DNA of 64,000 bases from contig JAHHHK010000010.1 of NCBI GenBank assembly GCA_019359395.1, positions 1 to 64,000 of the forward strand. The letters run 5' to 3'. The notes under the pieces are model-generated. The model had not been told where the DNA came from, ran no database searches, and saw only the letters and a program-made list of their open reading frames with translations. Below are positions 12,301-20,439 of the stretch, one piece after another; the stretch's first letter is position 1; each line of letters opens with the position of its first letter. A program made the translations under genes and the position numbers. This DNA comes from Komarekiella atlantica HA4396-MV6. GTDB taxonomy: Bacteria; Cyanobacteriota; Cyanobacteriia; Cyanobacteriales; Nostocaceae.

Positions 12301-14214
12301 TCATCGCTCGGCATATAACTTAGCTGATACCCCTATAGGCTGTCTAACTTGCGATTTCACGGCTTCAACAATAGCATCGGCGTCAATTTTGGCGGCATGA
12401 AGCAGTTCTTCTGGTGTGCCGGAACCTGGCATATCATGCACTGCTAGCTTTATTATTCGCAGTTGGGGGCCGTTGTAGGTGGGAGTATTACTAGTACCAG
12501 CAAAAGCATCAAGCACAGCAGCACCTAATCCGCCTTCACTCCAGTGGTCTTCGACGACTACCAAATTACCATTTGTATCGCGTGCAGCTTGATGAAGTGT
12601 CTGCATATCAATGGGTTTGACAGAATAAGCATCAATGACACGTACCGTGATATCTTCATTTATCAGGCGATCGCAGGCTTTAAGCGCTTCATGTAAAGTA
12701 ATACCAGCAGCAATTACAGTGGCTTGATCTTTTTGAGAACTATGAACTACCTTGCTACCACCAATGGGAAACTCTTCATCAGCACCATAGATTACTGGCG
12801 TACTTTCCCGTGTGGTGCGGAGGTAAACAACTCCATTGCGATCGCTCATTTGAGCTACTAGTTTAGCAGTTTGATTGGCATCACTCGGATATAGTACGGT
12901 ACTATTCCACACCGCTTGAAAGGCTGCTAAATCCTCCAATGCCATTTGGGAAGGGCCATCCTCACCAATTGACACCCCAGCATGAGAACCCACTAATTTA
13001 ATGTTGGCGCGTGAAATCGCAGCCATGCGTACAAAGTCGTAGGCTCTACTCAAGAAGGCGGCAAAGGTAGAAGCAAAGGGTTTGTATTGTCGCACTTGCA
13101 AACCTACCGCAGCTGCTACTAGTTGCTGTTCAGCAATGTACATCTCAAAGTAGCGCTCAGGAAAGGCTTCGGCAAAATCTTCAGCGTAAGTGGAATTGCT
13201 CACCTCGGCATCAAGGGCAACTACATCAGGTCGAGCCGCTCCCAAAGCTTTGAGAGCATCACCATAAGCGCGACGTGTTGCTACCTTTGCACCTTTCTCA
13301 TAAGTGGGAAGTTGTAACGGTTGAGGATTAGCGATTGTAGCGGGTTGGACTTGTTCTTCGGGCTTATCTACCTGGATTATAATGTGACGTTCACCGCCTA
13401 ACTCGGCGATCGCCTTTTTTTCCTGTTCTAGTTTCAGTGCCTTGCCATGCCAACCACCTAAATCTTCTAAAGCAACCACACCTTTGCCTTTTTTTGTCCG
13501 TGCAATAATTACCGTGGGGCGATCGTTAATGCTCAAAGCGGCGCTAAATGCTTGATCAATCTCCAGCAAGTTGTTACCATCAATCTCAATCGCTTGCCAG
13601 CCAAAGGCTCTGGCACGAGTAGCGTAAGCTTGTGTGTTCCAACCAAGTTCAGTTTGACCACGCTGCCCTAGTCGATTGACATCGATAATGGCAATTAGAT
13701 TGTCTAAGGTGTAGTGTCCAGCATGATCAAAAGCTTCCCATACCGAGCCTTCGGCTGTTTCACTATCACCAAGTAGTACCCAGACATGGTATGGCAATTG
13801 ATCTAAATATTTACCTGCTAGAGCCACTCCTACACCAATCGGCAATCCTTGCCCCAAAGAGCCGGTCGCCACATCAACCCAGGGCAAAACTGGTGTAGGA
13901 TGACCTTCCAAACGACTCCCCAATTTTCGCAGCGACAGCAATTCCTCATCGGTGATTACACCCGCAGCTTTATACATGGCATAAAGTAGCGGTGCAGCAT
14001 GTCCTTTTGAGAGGATGAAGCGATCGTTATTGGGGTAATGTGGATTGTCAAAGTCGTAGCGCAGATATTTAGATATTAAAACCGCTATTAAATCGGCAGC
14101 AGACATCGACGAAGTAGGATGACCCGAACCGGCAATAGTTGTGGCGCGAATACTATCTACACGCAACTGTTGTGCCAGCTCATGCCATTGGTGCAGTTGC
14201 TCCTGTGTGGTCAT
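12301..14214 (-). CDS. Transketolase (animal-like short form)
   Basis: 637 residues from the ATG at 14214, which follows an AGGAAAAC ribosome-binding-like stretch; a start at 14259 would add 15 residues and is less likely. The N-terminus (RVDSIRATTIAGSGHPTSSM, then ILSKGHAAPLLYAMY) and the thiamine-diphosphate motif GDSETAEGSVWEAFDHAGHY are clear, followed by the pyrimidine domain (VALDAEVSNSTYAEDF) and the C-terminal domain (VRVIDAYSVKPID). The wording matches the roughly 620-residue animal/archaeal-like transketolase group rather than the roughly 670-residue Calvin-cycle enzyme of cyanobacteria, so it is probably a second, accessory transketolase moving two-carbon units between sugar phosphates. 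It is monocistronic. Confidence 0.88.
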   Translation of the reverse strand: MTTQEQLHQWHELAQQLRVDSIRATTIAGSGHPTSSMSAADLIAVLISKYLRYDFDNPHYPNNDRFILSKGHAAPLLYAMYKAAGVITDEELLSLRKLGSRLEGHPTPVLPWVDVATGSLGQGLPIGVGVALAGKYLDQLPYHVWVLLGDSETAEGSVWEAFDHAGHYTLDNLIAIIDVNRLGQRGQTELGWNTQAYATRARAFGWQAIEIDGNNLLEIDQAFSAALSINDRPTVIIARTKKGKGVVALEDLGGWHGKALKLEQEKKAIAELGGERHIIIQVDKPEEQVQPATIANPQPLQLPTYEKGAKVATRRAYGDALKALGAARPDVVALDAEVSNSTYAEDFAEAFPERYFEMYIAEQQLVAAAVGLQVRQYKPFASTFAAFLSRAYDFVRMAAISRANIKLVGSHAGVSIGEDGPSQMALEDLAAFQAVWNSTVLYPSDANQTAKLVAQMSDRNGVVYLRTTRESTPVIYGADEEFPIGGSKVVHSSQKDQATVIAAGITLHEALKACDRLINEDITVRVIDAYSVKPIDMQTLHQAARDTNGNLVVVEDHWSEGGLGAAVLDAFAGTSNTPTYNGPQLRIIKLAVHDMPGSGTPEELLHAAKIDADAIVEAVKSQVRQPIGVSAKLYAER

Positions 14215-14356
14215 AGTTGTTTTCCTGAATGAAAATACAGGGAATTTATCAATAAGCAATGGTGAAGCGGACAGGGTTAAAAATCGAAAAAGTTACGAAA
14301 TGGTAAAATTTTCATCCAAATCTTTGGAATATGCCGATGGTAATTACTGGGCTATT

Positions 14357-14401
14357 GGTCAGATCCCCGACTTCTTAAAGAAAGAAGTCGGGGATCTGAC
14401 C
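14357..14401. repeat. Perfect 20-bp-arm hairpin AGATCCCCGACTTCTT, copy 2
   Basis: GGTCAGATCCCCGACTTCTT (14357-14376) is exactly complementary to the reversed segment 14382-14401, with a five-base AAAGA loop. It is the same palindrome as 6332-6364. It lies in the leader of the minus-strand transketolase gene and about 280 bases past the acetyltransferase stop. The rest of 14215-14678 is AT-rich with no gene. Confidence 0.65.
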
Positions 14402-14678
14402 ACCGTAATTTTTTAAACTCAAAAGAGATAAGAATGTGAGTAATCTTGGTCAGAGTACTTTTCTTCTTTAATTTACTTTAGAGAGTGGAAAAAACAATAA
14501 CTTCTTTCTAATGGTATAACCGCTGTTTCCTTCTCAAGGCAGACAAAAATTACAACCAATTTTATTAATTTAGATAGATGTATGGATTAATACTAACTAT
14601 AATTGATTCCATACGTGAGTTTAGATATAATAGAAAAAACGCCTATAAGATTGATTAAAAGCAAATTGAGTAATTCAA

Positions 14679-15143
14679 TTAAGAAAGAAGCTTTTCCATG
14701 ACAAAATTGATGAATTTTTGACCCTTACGCTCTACCTCTTGCTTTCTAACAACAATAAAATCTTTGTTTTCAAAGAAAGGTTTAGCTGTAATACTGGCTT
14801 CTGTAAATAACCTTTTAATCTCTAAAGCTCTTGCCTTTGCTTCAATGTGTTCTAAAATTTGTGTGCCAACTCCTTGCCTTTGAAAGTCTTTATGGCAATA
14901 AAAACAATCAATATGACCATTTGCTTCTAATTGCCCAAAACCAATAATTCTATTATCCTCCTCTGCCACATAAGTAAACTTATCTCCTAAACGTTTAATC
15001 CAAACTTCGATATCTGTATTTGCCGATGCCCAAGCGTCTACTTGGGCTTTTGTGTAATCATGAATATTTATCTCATGAACGGTGTCATAAAATAATTTGA
15101 TAATTTCTTCGGTATCGTCTATTTTGTATATTCGTAAATGCAT
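14679..15143 (-). CDS. GNAT-family N-acetyltransferase
   Basis: 154 residues from the ATG at 15143 (a TTG six bases earlier is less likely). It has the GNAT fold: an N-terminal helix (YKIDDTEEIIKLFYDTVHEI), a central strand (FTYVAEEDNRIIGFGQL), the acetyl-CoA loop FQRQGVGTQILEHIE (Q/RxxGxG/A motif) and a C-terminal strand (KQEVERKGQKFINFVMEKLL). It transfers an acetyl group from acetyl-CoA; the acceptor is unknown. It resembles the small PhnO/YafP-like stand-alone acetyltransferases. The gene is AT-rich relative to its neighbours, which hints at horizontal acquisition. No operon partner. Confidence 0.82.
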   Translation of the reverse strand: MHLRIYKIDDTEEIIKLFYDTVHEINIHDYTKAQVDAWASANTDIEVWIKRLGDKFTYVAEEDNRIIGFGQLEANGHIDCFYCHKDFQRQGVGTQILEHIEAKARALEIKRLFTEASITAKPFFENKDFIVVRKQEVERKGQKFINFVMEKLLS

Positions 15144-15266
15144 AAGCAAGGGTATTGATGAAAAATAAATACTACTGGAAATATTATCGGCGATCGCCAG
15201 CTAGTTCAAACTTCTCATAATAAGCCGCAGCTAGATTTTAGTTTCCACACTTAAGGTGAGATTTTT

Positions 15267-15518
15267 ATGGTACCAACTGAAGAATTACCAGTGCCAAAGC
15301 GAACACCAAGCACAGTTCAAGAAATTCCCTCCCCCGGTATAACTCCCAAAGATTCACTAATTGCCAAAGGCTGGCAACGCGAACAGTATATTGGCATTAC
15401 AATTCTGTTGCTAAGCTTGGTTGCCGTTGTCGGGTTTTTTAGTCGCAGATTTGAATATGCGCTGTTGTTTGCTTTTGTCCTCAGCATCATCCTCATTGTG
15501 TTCTTTCTGACTGTTTAA
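15267..15518 (+). CDS. Small two-TM membrane protein
   Basis: 83 residues: a Pro-rich hydrophilic N-terminal half (about 45 residues) followed by two adjacent hydrophobic helices (ITILLLSLVAVVGFF and ALLFAFVLSIILIVFFLTV) split by SRRFEY. GGTGAG lies about 10 bases before the ATG at 15267. No family is recognised. Its stop is only about 15 bases from the stop of the minus-strand fusion gene, so the two are convergent. It is likely a real gene because of clean membrane topology and a usable ribosome-binding site. Confidence 0.6.
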   Translation: MVPTEELPVPKRTPSTVQEIPSPGITPKDSLIAKGWQREQYIGITILLLSLVAVVGFFSRRFEYALLFAFVLSIILIVFFLTV

Positions 15519-15531
15519 GTATTGAGCGTTC

Positions 15532-16680
15532 TCAATCAAACACAGGAGGCCAAAGTTCAGATACTACAAGTTCCCACTCAGGAAATAACTCTGAGACAGT
15601 AAGCTTTTCCCCATTTCCTAATACCGTCACTCCGCTGCTCGGTCGATAAACTGATACAGTCTGAGAATCTGGGTCAATTAATAGTGCTACCCTTACTCCC
15701 AAGTCTAAAAATCTTTGAATTATTTGCTGCACAGATATCAATCGGTCAAAGGCAGATTTAATCTCCACTACTAGATCAGGTACTAATTCGGGGTAAGTTC
15801 GCGGTACTCGCTTCAAGCGTTCCCGTGAAAAGAATGAGATACGCGGCGCGACTATATCTCCATTGGGTAACTGAAACCCACCTCTAGAGCCAATGATGTG
15901 CCCTAATTTGCGCGGTTCTACCCAAGAAAACAAAAATGCACAAAAGCGAGCGCTAATTTCACCAGAGGTAAAATCAGGCGGGGACTCATTCAAGTCATAC
16001 TCACGGGTAAAACCTCGATTAGGACTGATAGCTACAGCTGGTACGCCTAAAGACATAATTTCTGTCAACACTTCTTGCCAAAGGTTCTTCAGATTTACGC
16101 CTAGCTTTTTGAGCACCCCCACTGCTACCCCATCGGAGACACTCAGTACACCTAGCAAAAGATGCTCTGTACCAATGAATGTGTGACCTAATTTCTGAGA
16201 TTCTTCAACAGCTAAGTCCAAAACTTGCTTACCTTTGGGAGTAAAGGGATACTCTACGCCTTGAATTCCAGTCCCACGACCAATAATTTTTTCCACTTCA
16301 GTTTGAGCAGCCTCAAGGGTAATACCAGCAGACTTGAGAACCTTAGCCGCAAGACCATTGCCTTCTGCAATTAATCCAATCAAAATCTGTTCAGTACCAA
16401 CAAATTGATGCCCTAAGCGCTCACCTTCGCCTTGTGCAAGCACGATCGCCCGATATGCTTTGGCGGTGAATCTTTCAAACATAGAATTTTCCTCTGGTAA
16501 GAAGATGAATTGAATAGGATAGCGGAACACCTTGGCAATTTTGAAAGCTAAGGCCAAACTTGGGTCGTATTTGCCAACTTCAATAGCGTTGATGGTTTGA
16601 CGACTCACGCTTAAAAGTTTTGCTAATTCCGCCTGTGACCAATTGCGTTGAGTTCTAAGAAGACGTAAACGATTTTGCAT
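15532..16680 (-). CDS. XRE-type HTH / double Clp-N / Uma2 nuclease-like fusion protein
   Basis: 382 residues with four domains in one frame. (1) XRE helix-turn-helix, residues 1-60 ([20 protein letters not shown]), a DNA-binding domain. (2) Clp-N repeat 1, about 68-138 ([20 protein letters not shown]). (3) Clp-N repeat 2, about 145-212 ([20 protein letters not shown]), both as in ClpC/ClpB N-terminal substrate or adaptor docking domains, but with no AAA+ module. (4) Uma2/DUF820 PD-(D/E)XK-like domain, about 225-382 (PDLVVEIKS at 301-309, [11 protein letters not shown] at 328-337). The usual PD dipeptide preceding the first core strand is PR here (279-280), so catalysis is doubtful. No ATPase and no second toxin-like gene is adjacent; the divergent gene is KDPG aldolase 186 bp away. 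Domain assignment is confident; function is unknown. Confidence 0.82.
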
Positions 16681-16866
16681 TGCTTGGCTAAAAAAACTAG
16701 TGTATTCGCATAGTTTTTGCCTTGCCTGAATTTTATCGTAAACTTTACTTGTCTTTGTGTCAAGTTTGCTTTACAAAATATCAGCTATTATTTGTAGCGT
16801 TTTTAACAAAAAGCAACACATTAAGAGTTACCTAACCCCCATACCCAATCTCCAGTCAGAGTCAAA
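16681..16866. promoter_or_regulatory. Shared divergent promoter region of the HTH fusion gene and KDPG aldolase gene
   Basis: 186 bases between divergent starts. It includes ACTTG (16747-16751) and CAAGT (16762-16766) as inverted half-sites around a 10-base spacer, a plausible autoregulatory operator for an XRE protein. This is only a pattern; no known consensus is matched. Confidence 0.25.
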
Positions 16867-17499
16867 ATGTCTAATCAACTTTGGTTATCACAGTTGCAAC
16901 AACACCGAGCGATCGCAGTTATCCGCGCCCCCAAAATGAAGTTGGGACAGCAAATGGCAATGGCTGTAGCGTCTGGTGGAATGCAGCTAATTGAGATTAC
17001 CTGGAATAGCGATCGCGCCGCAGAATTAATCACTCAACTACGTTCGGAGTTACCAGCCTGTATAATTGGCACTGGTACGCTGTTTAATGTGCAGCAGCTA
17101 CAAGAAGCGATCGCATGTGGGGCGCAATTCCTCTTCACACCCCATGTTGATCCGGCAATGATTCAAGCTGCGGTAGAAAAGAATGTACCTATTATCCCAG
17201 GAGCACTGACTCCTACAGAAATTGTTACCGCGTGGAATAAGGGCGCTAGTTGCGTGAAAGTGTTTCCCGTGCAAGCAATGGGACAAGCAAAATATATCAA
17301 AAGTTTACAAGGCCCCCTGGGTCACATTCCCTTGATTCCTACTGGCGGCGTCACCCTGGAAAATGCCAAAGAATTTTTACAAGCCGGAGCGATCGCCGTA
17401 GGTTTAAGTGGTGAATTATTTCCCAAAAAGCTTGTCACCAATGAAAATTGGGAAGCGATCGCAAGTCAGGCAAAAAACCTGATACAGCAGTTAAATTAG
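16867..17499 (+). CDS. eda: KDPG/KHG aldolase (2-keto-3-deoxy-6-phosphogluconate aldolase)
   Basis: 210 residues, class I aldolase TIM barrel. The Schiff-base Lys131 is in SCVKVFP, the catalytic Glu43 in LIEITWN, the phosphate-site Arg20 in AVIRAP, plus GTGTL and PTGGV loops. It cleaves 2-keto-3-deoxy-6-phosphogluconate into pyruvate and glyceraldehyde-3-phosphate (Entner-Doudoroff pathway) and can act on 4-hydroxy-2-oxoglutarate. Cyanobacteria use this pathway, and the eda-type enzyme is the expected one. No dehydratase gene is next to it. The ATG at 16867 matches the family N-terminus; a longer upstream frame from 16757 is a different frame. Confidence 0.92.
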   Translation: MSNQLWLSQLQQHRAIAVIRAPKMKLGQQMAMAVASGGMQLIEITWNSDRAAELITQLRSELPACIIGTGTLFNVQQLQEAIACGAQFLFTPHVDPAMIQAAVEKNVPIIPGALTPTEIVTAWNKGASCVKVFPVQAMGQAKYIKSLQGPLGHIPLIPTGGVTLENAKEFLQAGAIAVGLSGELFPKKLVTNENWEAIASQAKNLIQQLN

Positions 17500-17606
17500 A
17501 TTAGGATGAAATCATCAAAAACTCACGTCTATTGCAGCAATAGACATGGAAGTAAAGGTGAAACCTGACAACTTTCCCAAGACTCCATTATTTGAGTGTA
17601 TTTACC

Positions 17607-18119
17607 ATGAAAACCCTAATTTCTTCTGACTGGGCGCGTCGCTTAAAAATACTCCTCGCTGGTACAGCACTTTCATTGAGTGTTGTTAATCTTGGTGCAG
17701 GCGAAGTTTGGGCGAATTCCAAAAATCAGATAATTGCTCAACAAATCCAGACACTACAACAATCTGAACGGCGTTGGATTCAAATTAATCTTTCAAAACA
17801 ACGGTTAATAGCTTGGGAAGGTAACAAAGTTGTTTATGGGGCCAAGATTTCTTCTGGCAAAAAATCCACTCCCACACGTATTGGGACTTTTAAAATTCAA
17901 TCCAAGTTGAAGTCTACGCGGATGCGGGGTAGGGGCTACGACGTTCCTAACGTTCCTCATGCGATGTTTTACGAAGGTAATTACGGTATTCACGGAGCCT
18001 ACTGGCATAAAAGATTTGGCACTCCAGTCAGCCACGGTTGCGTAAATCTCGCACCTAAACATGCTCAATGGCTATTCAAGTGGGCATCATTAGGAACACC
18101 AGTGGTTATTCATAAATAA
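17607..18119 (+). CDS. Secreted L,D-transpeptidase (YkuD domain), copy 1
   Basis: 170 residues from the ATG at 17607; an upstream TTG at 17592 is a poorer start. The signal peptide is MKTLISSDWARRLKILLAGT and following hydrophobic residues to about 38. The YkuD domain begins at WIQINLSKQRLIAWEG and contains the catalytic SHGCVNL with Cys145 (residues 142-148) and His in GIHGAYWHKRF. YkuD enzymes make 3-3 cross-links in peptidoglycan or attach proteins to it, in the periplasm. A paralogue follows at 18627; both share a Gly-rich RMRGRGY insertion. A 500-bp spacer suggests separate promoters. Confidence 0.9.
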   Translation: MKTLISSDWARRLKILLAGTALSLSVVNLGAGEVWANSKNQIIAQQIQTLQQSERRWIQINLSKQRLIAWEGNKVVYGAKISSGKKSTPTRIGTFKIQSKLKSTRMRGRGYDVPNVPHAMFYEGNYGIHGAYWHKRFGTPVSHGCVNLAPKHAQWLFKWASLGTPVVIHK

Positions 18120-18626: not shown

Positions 18627-19166
18627 ATGCAAAACTGGATTCGCAGTGGCGGAATTCGTAGCTCAAAAACTTTTTGTACAGGCGTGGCGCTCATAGTGGC
18701 GACGTTGTTTTCCTGGTCGCCACCGTTAACAAGAGGTGATCACAACTCTGCTATAGCTACCGGGTCAGTAAATGAAAATAGCATCATAGTATCTGACATT
18801 AGACAAGTATCCCAACCTCGCTGGATTGAAATCGACCTATCTGAGCAAAGGTTACGTGCATGGGAAGGTAAAAAACTTGTTTATTCATACCGAATTTCGG
18901 GAGGTAAGCGATCAACTCCCACACCCATCGGTAGATTTCGGATCAATTCTAAGTATCGCACTCATCGGATGCGAGGCAGGGGGTACAACATTCCTGATGT
19001 CCCTTACACAATGTATTTTTATAGAGGTTACGCCATTCATGGTGCTTACTGGCATAATCGTTTTGGAACTCCAGTCAGCCACGGTTGCGTGAATTTACGA
19101 GTCCAGCAGGCTCGTAGGCTGTACAACTGGACAAAAAGGGGGACTTTAGTAGTGGTGCGTAGGTAG
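18627..19166 (+). CDS. Secreted L,D-transpeptidase (YkuD domain), copy 2
   Basis: 179 residues. The N-terminal signal-like segment ([19 protein letters not shown]) ends near residue 36. The YkuD domain ([20 protein letters not shown]) has SHGCVNL at residues 151-157 with Cys154 and [11 protein letters not shown]. It is closely similar to copy 1, with a different N-terminal half of the mature protein. It is periplasmic and acts on peptidoglycan. It is followed by a GTAGAGACG-type hairpin (19173-19201) that may end its transcript. GAAGGTGATGCATA just before the ATG supplies a ribosome-binding site. Confidence 0.9.
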
Positions 19167-19845: not shown

Positions 19846-20439
19846 ATGCAATTAGAAACACAAAAACGTTATTACACAGTTGAAGAGTATTTAGAACTTG
19901 AAGAAAAGGCTGAATATAAAAGCGAATACCGCGATGGAGAAATCGTCCCGATGACGGGTGGTACTACCAATCATAATAAAATTGCAGGCAACTTTTATGC
20001 CTACTTAAAGTTTGCTTTGAGAGGCAAAAATTATGATGTTTATATCAGTGATGTACGTTTGTGGATACCCCGTTATCGGCAGCATACCTATCCAGATGTA
20101 ATGGTAATTCAGGGGCAATCTGTTTATACAGGAACAAATACGACTACTGTCATAAATCCCTTGCTCATCACGGAAGTTTTATCTAAATCGACTAAAAATT
20201 ATGACCAAGGAGATAAATTTTTGTATTATCGCTCAATTCCAGAATTTAAAGAATATGTTTTAATTGACCAATATTACCATCATGTTATGCAGTATGTAAA
20301 AACTGCTGAAGGTCAATGGTTATTTACTGAACTGGAAGGTGAATCTGCAACTTTATTACTGCAAACGGTAGATTTTCAAATTCAACTTAGCAATCTTTAT
20401 GAGCAAGTTAATTTTGCTGAGAGCGATGAAGGAAATTAA
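19846..20439 (+). CDS. Uma2-family putative restriction-like nuclease (DUF820)
   Basis: 197 residues, standard length for the family. The core is [20 protein letters not shown], then the PD motif in [10 protein letters not shown], the acidic strand in [11 protein letters not shown] and a late YVLIDQY strand. The PD-(D/E)XK fold is that of endonucleases; cyanobacteria encode dozens of such genes and their biological role is not established. Unlike the fusion protein at 15532, this copy keeps the PD aspartate. It may be co-transcribed with the preceding unknown gene. Confidence 0.85.

Follow-up and report, generated by a model that had tools for sequence, protein, structure and literature searches.

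The window analysed here, a stretch of 64,000 nucleotides at the start of contig JAHHHK010000010.1 of Komarekiella atlantica HA4396-MV6, carries a gene whose predicted product combines a DNA-binding domain of the XRE type with the N-terminal docking domain of the ClpC unfoldase and a Uma2-like domain. Translation of 15532-16680 on the plus strand meets many stops; read from 16680 to 15532 on the minus strand, the same segment is a single open frame from ATG to stop, in agreement with the uninterrupted frame of 382 residues reported in an earlier note on this DNA. The features of the gene are as follows.

15532..16680, minus strand: XRE - Clp_N x2 - pseudo-Uma2 gene, 382 aa, ATG at 16680 (domain searches, model, orthologs)
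16507..16668, minus strand: XRE-type helix-turn-helix (HTH), residues 5-58 (Pfam HTH_3, alignment)
16063..16482, minus strand: ClpC-type N-domain, residues 67-206 (PDB sequence search, alignment)
16279..16437 and 16060..16212, minus strand: Clp_N repeats, within or around the ClpC-type N-domain
15976..16062, minus strand: variable linker, residues 207-235, largely of low pLDDT and with the highest dN of the four segments
15562..15984, minus strand: putative pseudo-Uma2 domain, residues 233-373, without the N-terminal part of Uma2 (Pfam, Foldseek)
15841..15843, minus strand: codon of Arg280, where the Uma2 APD motif has its conserved Asp (alignment)
15757..15765, minus strand: codons of Glu306-Ile307-Lys308, the E-x-K motif (alignment)

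In Pfam searches, HTH_3 was found at residues 5-58 (E 1.4e-16), as in XRE-type HTH proteins, Clp_N was matched twice (2.7e-32, best stretch 82-134), and Uma2 was found at residues 233-373 (E 1.1e-21) over profile positions 26-171 of 172, the late start of this match indicating that the Uma2 N-terminus is missing. No AAA match to the 382-aa protein was found in Pfam, and thus none of the AAA+ modules of a Clp/Hsp100 unfoldase. A sequence search of the PDB matched residues 67-206 to the N-domain of Arabidopsis ClpC1 (5gui, E 3.8e-49) and residues 232-377 to the Uma2 protein 1wdj (E 2.7e-12). An AlphaFold2 model built on 42 sequences shows the HTH, two Clp_N repeats, a low-confidence linker (pLDDT below 50 at residues 213-233) and an alpha/beta Uma2 core; with a mean pLDDT of 81.8 and a pTM of 0.45, the individual domains are better founded than their mutual arrangement. 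The top Foldseek matches of this model are ClpC N-domains at about 1 Å (5gui, rmsd 0.9), followed by 1wdj (rmsd 1.6-1.9), as befits a Uma2 fold. The domain order given in the earlier note, an XRE domain, two Clp-N repeats without AAA+ and a Uma2-like domain, was thus recovered by Pfam, PDB sequence search and Foldseek alike, and the domain search and structure prediction proposed there returned all three profiles and the HTH, the Clp_N pair and the Uma2 core. Within the HTH, residues S15 Q16 A17, V25 S26 R27 Q28 T29, N31, E34, G36 and Y38-L42 are invariant among 20 aligned proteins.

The architecture recurs among relatives. A single scan of 84,980 species genomes, seeded with six short peptides of the protein, returned 11 loci, namely eight full-length ones (66-99% identity in the best segment), two matching in Clp_N only (L020, which encodes an 815-residue ClpC-like protein, and L019, which runs to the contig end) and one matching in the HTH only. 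A Clp_N-Uma2 protein occurs in at least 7 of 388 genomes of the class, at least 4 of these with the XRE head, and the whole architecture is encoded in 17 of the 217 genomes from the window's family (Nostocaceae), with E values no worse than 1e-58 and the XRE head present in every one; the genomes and loci counted are related, and the counts do not represent independent events. Because of this recurrence in other cyanobacteria, where the earlier note had suggested looking, the architecture is neither a matter of chance nor an assembly error. An erroneous joining of two genes by an indel or a chimera, which the note had named among the findings that would overturn it, is refuted by the orthologs and has a negligible probability: the domains stand in one frame and in the same order in the 8 full-length loci, which come from named assemblies, and in the 17 family genomes, with some overlap of species, and the promoter is conserved among orthologs as well. 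Presence in the family is patchy, and any role is therefore accessory.

Three Clp_N-Uma2 proteins from other families of the class (L026, L027, L028) are devoid of an HTH; in the genomes of L026 and L027, the gene immediately follows a 484-residue open frame of the same orientation. In the Uma2 tree, one side of a branch (95/100) holds all 23 fused proteins, those lacking an HTH included, and a single origin of the fusion is possible; in the Clp_N tree, the F group has a support of 71/0 and long branches meet. The alignments behind both trees included linker columns. Carriage on mobile elements was considered and rejected, as no plasmid record reaches 80% coverage of the query (the sole plasmid match at E 1e-30 is a Uma2 protein) and none of the 28 matching phage records covers more than 80% of it, the 12 among the matches listed covering Clp_N only. 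Mycobacterium phage Phabba (L228, 1501-2166) encodes a 221-residue protein with 50% identity to query residues 67-173, in the Clp_N part, that is annotated as a Clp ATPase domain yet is much too short for one, and phage Myrna gives a similar match. The Phabba protein may mimic the docking domain of ClpC.

The region 16681-16866, proposed in the earlier note as a DNA target of the protein, was found to hold a predicted tandem operator (16738-16774) over the gene's own promoter:

16759..16774, minus strand: predicted operator dyad 1, GTAAAGCAAACTTGAC, holding most of the -35 hexamer
16738..16753, minus strand: predicted operator dyad 2, GACAAGTAAAGTTTAC, overlapping the -10 hexamer, its centre 21 bp from that of dyad 1
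16735..16763, minus strand: sigma70-like promoter TTGACA - 17 - TACGAT, within the operators, a consensus match
16708..16718, minus strand: short leader motif AAAAACTATGC, partly conserved and recognisable in many of 20 aligned promoters

About 2.7 matches as good as TTGACA-17-TACGAT at 16763-16735 are expected by chance in the region scanned. Upstream regions were taken from 25 genes and reduced to 20, some of them near-identical, by dropping five that came from second copies of a genome already represented. All 20 of these XRE-fused promoters contain a pair of 16-bp dyads, GTAAA-N6-TTTAC, 21-22 bp apart and with 16-19 of the 20 defining bases, the -35 half usually reading TTGAC; by sequence, a palindromic operator at the own promoter, as expected of XRE-family and ClpC2-type regulators, is present in every one. 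The dyads begin 66-96 bp upstream of the start codon, or 151 bp in the case of L097. Among 2000 dinucleotide shuffles, the best score averaged 12.1 with a maximum of 16, which was reached by 0.15% (2/2000 in a repeat run), and only two of 420 window tiles (210 stretches, both strands) reach 16, both being the tile that holds the operator.

The tandem site was searched for over 19 genomes, with the reversed pattern as control. At 0 mismatches, it occurs in 13 of the 19, once each and at this gene; two more (G457, G559) have it with one base more of spacing, and G123, G193 and G536 carry it at the gene with 2-3 mismatches. G458 gave no match under the tandem patterns, though its promoter is among the 20, and a tandem pattern with a spacing uncommon among genomes matched in 3 of 19 genomes, its local version in 0. 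Judged by sequence, the exact tandem operator is, within the genomes searched, confined to the promoter of the gene itself. A wider regulon was rejected: away from the gene, tandem sites matched only with three mismatches (31, against 28 in the reversed control, in the 19 genomes), and single dyads numbered 16 elsewhere against 18 control sites in six genomes, or 4 against 2 in the own genome alone. There may nevertheless be targets in trans with an altered or single site. Regulation of a linked gene was likewise discarded as the main role, since clustering of the neighbours of 23 loci, including four second copies of the same genome, gave no cluster besides the gene itself in more than six, and the own promoter is hence the only widely conserved DNA target seen. 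No RNA element was detected in 14000-18000 at Rfam gathering scores. Two nearby genes of the window, at 17592-18119 and 18627-19166, are related and cluster together in the neighbour analysis; presumably they resemble L,D-transpeptidases.

A sister family in cyanobacteria was met by HTH search and checked with Pfam: XRE-Clp_N proteins of about 217-230 residues without Uma2 (L152, L153, L158-L177, L186-L196). An XRE-Clp_N query matches 26 of 388 class genomes at E 1e-22, 4 with the long form and 22 with the short form, three of the latter only in part (G141, G161, G290); in the window's family 26 of 211 genomes match, 12 with the short and 16 with the long form, 2 of them with both. From 33 sister loci, 31 promoters were obtained, L190 being a second copy and L168 lacking upstream DNA. 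Two 17-bp sites, GT(C/A/T)AAG-N5-CTTGAC, stand before the start in 30 of these 31, mostly near -69 and -34, with variants GGCAAG and GTAAAA in L172; the remaining promoter, that of L176, matches one site exactly and the other with a mismatch. No site was found in 2600 shuffles (26 promoters x 100). The pair is single and at the own gene in 9 of 10 genomes, the first site of G440 (GTAAAG) escaping the pattern, and no common neighbour gene was apparent at ten loci looked at. The sister proteins (L152 and relatives) thus share with the 382-aa protein the XRE head, the Clp_N pair and tandem operators before the start codon, but have no Uma2 part, a more divergent Clp_N part and 17-bp operators about 35 bp apart. 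That two families have different yet self-placed operators is the best argument for self-repression as a shared logic, and autorepression is well supported by sequence. An internal TAG interrupts the HTH portion of the XRE-Clp_N frame of L194, through decay or sequencing error.

Residues F68, Q83, E97, F146, K151 and E172 align with F2, Q17, E31, F80, K85 and E106 of ClpC. F2 and F80 are published cyclomarin/rufomycin residues, and Q17 and K85 take part in ecumicin/rufomycin binding (PMC7193532); E32 and E106 of Gram-positive ClpC, which are described in PMC12583610 as binding phosphoarginine, correspond by our own alignment to E31 and E106 in cyanobacterial numbering. In the XRE-fused proteins, these sites are retained in 19/20 (F2), 20/20 (Q17), 20/20 (F80), 18/20 (K85), 20/20 (E31) and 20/20 (E106). 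Their mean conservation is 0.97, versus 0.64 at 138 ClpC-invariant positions (13 representatives; positions constant in 24 ClpC rows, the divergent row L002 left out), and 0.09% of random six-site sets are equally conserved. The argument hinges on the choice of residues: adding 14 and 77, two further positions of the ecumicin site given in PMC7193532, lowers the mean of the pocket, now of eight sites, to 0.83, which 5.1% of random eight-site sets match. Position 14 is Met in cyanobacterial ClpC and Val in 10 of 20 fused proteins, as in mycobacterial ClpC1 (PMC7193532). The cyclomarin pocket is said to be absent from Gram-positive ClpC (PMC9240326); F2 and F80 are present in the 382-aa protein and in all 25 cyanobacterial ClpC rows. 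In the sister family, F2 is kept in 24/26, F80 in 22/26, E31 in 23/26, E106 in 26/26 and K85 in 20/26, and position 17 is R in 23/26. The idea of the earlier note that the regulator is tied to Clp ligands is favoured by these retained residues and by the ClpC2 precedent discussed below, a support that is indirect.

Uma2 is predicted to be a PD-(D/E)XK endonuclease and probably a solo toxin (PMC2701414). Alignment confirms Pro-Arg at residues 279-280, noted earlier as a departure from the family; the change is real, though not special to this copy, since none of the 20 aligned XRE-fused proteins has Asp at this position of the APD motif (R 11, H 5, K 1, L 1, Q 1, C 1). Among the 26 free-standing relatives with the best scores, with none left out, the residue is D in 25 and N in one, and the three fused proteins without HTH (L026-L028) have N, H and D. 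The Asp is taken as catalytic because of the PD-(D/E)XK assignment (PMC2701414) and because position 280 sits just before the core strand 281-285 of the model. Against five relatives, the Uma2 part is the most constrained domain (dN/dS 0.03-0.10, compared with 0.10-0.18 for Clp_N and 0.09-0.53, over few sites, for the HTH), four of the five pairs yielding 0.26-0.82 for the linker and the fifth none. This suggests a pseudo-nuclease, non-catalytic through loss of the presumed catalytic Asp and kept under purifying selection, as the earlier note had surmised, and makes a clear case of a nuclease fold under strong selection after such a change. Glu306 and Lys308 are retained in all 20 XRE-fused proteins and lost in L026, L027 and L028, and the E-x-K motif may still bind metal. 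A separate free-standing Uma2 gene lies at 19846-20439 of the window, about 3 kb from the fused gene (197 aa, Pfam E 1.2e-31). Uma2 matches within open frames of 500-562 residues (G072:C23:17618-18067, G033:C1:3354918-3355367, G013:C1:964406-964855) are possibly more Uma2 fusions.

Taken together, the operators in all 20 promoters, their restriction to the own gene, the pocket residues, the Uma2 dN/dS, the sister family and the ClpC2 precedent lead us to propose, with a probability of roughly 0.57, that this is a one-gene, self-repressing and ligand-sensing regulator, with its XRE head on its own operators and the ClpC-like domain as sensor. Dimers of the XRE head would bind the two 16-bp dyads covering the -35 and -10 and keep the gene low. 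A molecule that normally docks on ClpC, such as a peptide directed at ClpC, an adaptor, a protein that is unfolded or marked with phosphoarginine, or a phage protein, would occupy the N-domain and thereby lift repression, and the newly made protein would then compete with ClpC for this ligand, perhaps soaking it up. The pseudo-Uma2 part would be conserved as a module without catalytic activity and would most likely serve dimerisation, contact with DNA or the response to the ligand.

Three other readings were weighed against this regulator. A possible but less probable one is that the Clp_N part reports on ClpC itself, competing with it for endogenous adaptors or marked substrates or being delivered to ClpCP, so that the protein would gauge proteolytic load rather than sense a toxin or act as a sponge. 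It draws on the retention of both phosphoarginine glutamates (E32 and E106 in PMC12583610) in 20/20 and on the competition for substrates or adaptors raised by the ClpC2 authors (PMC10030653), but the cyclic-peptide residues F2, Q17, F80 and K85 are about equally kept. Were the Clp_N part a stable scaffold or dimer module only, the XRE head responding to protein level alone, simple autorepression would fit the operators, and pocket conservation comes near chance with eight positions instead of six; we find this unlikely in view of F80, Q17, E31 and E106, which are invariant in 20/20 in a domain that shares only about 58% identity with ClpC. Still more improbable is a toxin-antitoxin or defence protein whose XRE part holds an active Uma2 nuclease in check. 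The family prediction of an endonuclease and likely solo toxin (PMC2701414) and the intact E-x-K motif speak for it, against which stand the replacement of the Asp in 20/20 XRE-fused proteins while 25/26 free-standing relatives keep it, the missing Uma2 N-terminus, and PADLOC results comprising single-protein matches only to the HTH part and weak ones to the Uma2 part. Nor was the linked pair of a type II toxin-antitoxin system found, no neighbour cluster occurring in more than 6 of the 23 loci.

The ligand-sensing regulator predicts an exact operator, an exact pocket and natural ClpC-directed molecules to be sought in cyanobacteria; the tandem dyad operators over the -35 and -10 of all 20 XRE-fused promoters are new here. 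It is tempting to speculate further, if doubtfully, that cyanobacteria possess autoinducible ClpC docking-domain decoys, a family of two architectures whose members would sense attackers of ClpC (cyclic peptides from neighbours, or phage proteins), free their own promoter and soak the attacker up, the dead nuclease serving as a second recognition surface. If so, ClpC would be a contested target in cyanobacteria as in actinobacteria, and the ClpC2 principle, in which the docking domain of a protease is put to new use as an autorepressor that senses a ligand, would extend from the latter to the former, in both architectures and with another kind of DNA-binding head.

Among the matches listed from the open-access literature, no published description of the XRE-Clp_N-Uma2 architecture was found. 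XRE repressors with a C-terminal sensor, as described in general terms in PMC12584617, likewise combine an N-terminal HTH with a variable sensor or dimerisation region, a Clp N-domain in the sensor role not being mentioned in the part of that description consulted. Compared with Uma2/DUF820 proteins (PF05685, COG4636; 1wdj, 3ot2, 9y1l), the present protein has the same fold and the same E-x-K strand, but is without the N-terminal part and the APD-motif Asp and carries this domain behind XRE and Clp_N. Compared with the AAA+ unfoldase ClpC of the own genome (C56, an 839-aa open frame), its N-domain is 58% identical over the matched region, of the same fold and with most pocket residues retained, but it has a DNA-binding head and no ATPase modules.

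The closest precedent is mycobacterial ClpC2, which binds its own promoter at CGTCAAC-n5-GTTGACG, over the -35 and -10, an operator repeated in many of the actinobacteria analysed; binding of cyclomarin in the Clp_N pocket relieves repression, after which the protein serves as a sponge (PMC10030653). The claim in the earlier note that no such combination has been described therefore holds for the full architecture but not for the kind of protein, which is not wholly new, a DNA-binding Clp_N regulator without AAA+ being known in ClpC2 (PMC10030653). Both have a stand-alone ClpC-type N-domain without AAA+, two conserved pocket phenylalanines and palindromic operators over their own -35 and -10, predicted in the present case, and autorepression, which has been shown for ClpC2, is here deduced from sequence. 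Unlike the present protein, ClpC2 carries a four-helix dimerisation domain and is proposed to contact DNA through its Clp_N domain, and no Uma2 part figures in its description in PMC10030653. With an XRE HTH in place of the four-helix domain, the 382-aa protein is not to be filed as ClpC2, but it probably works like it.
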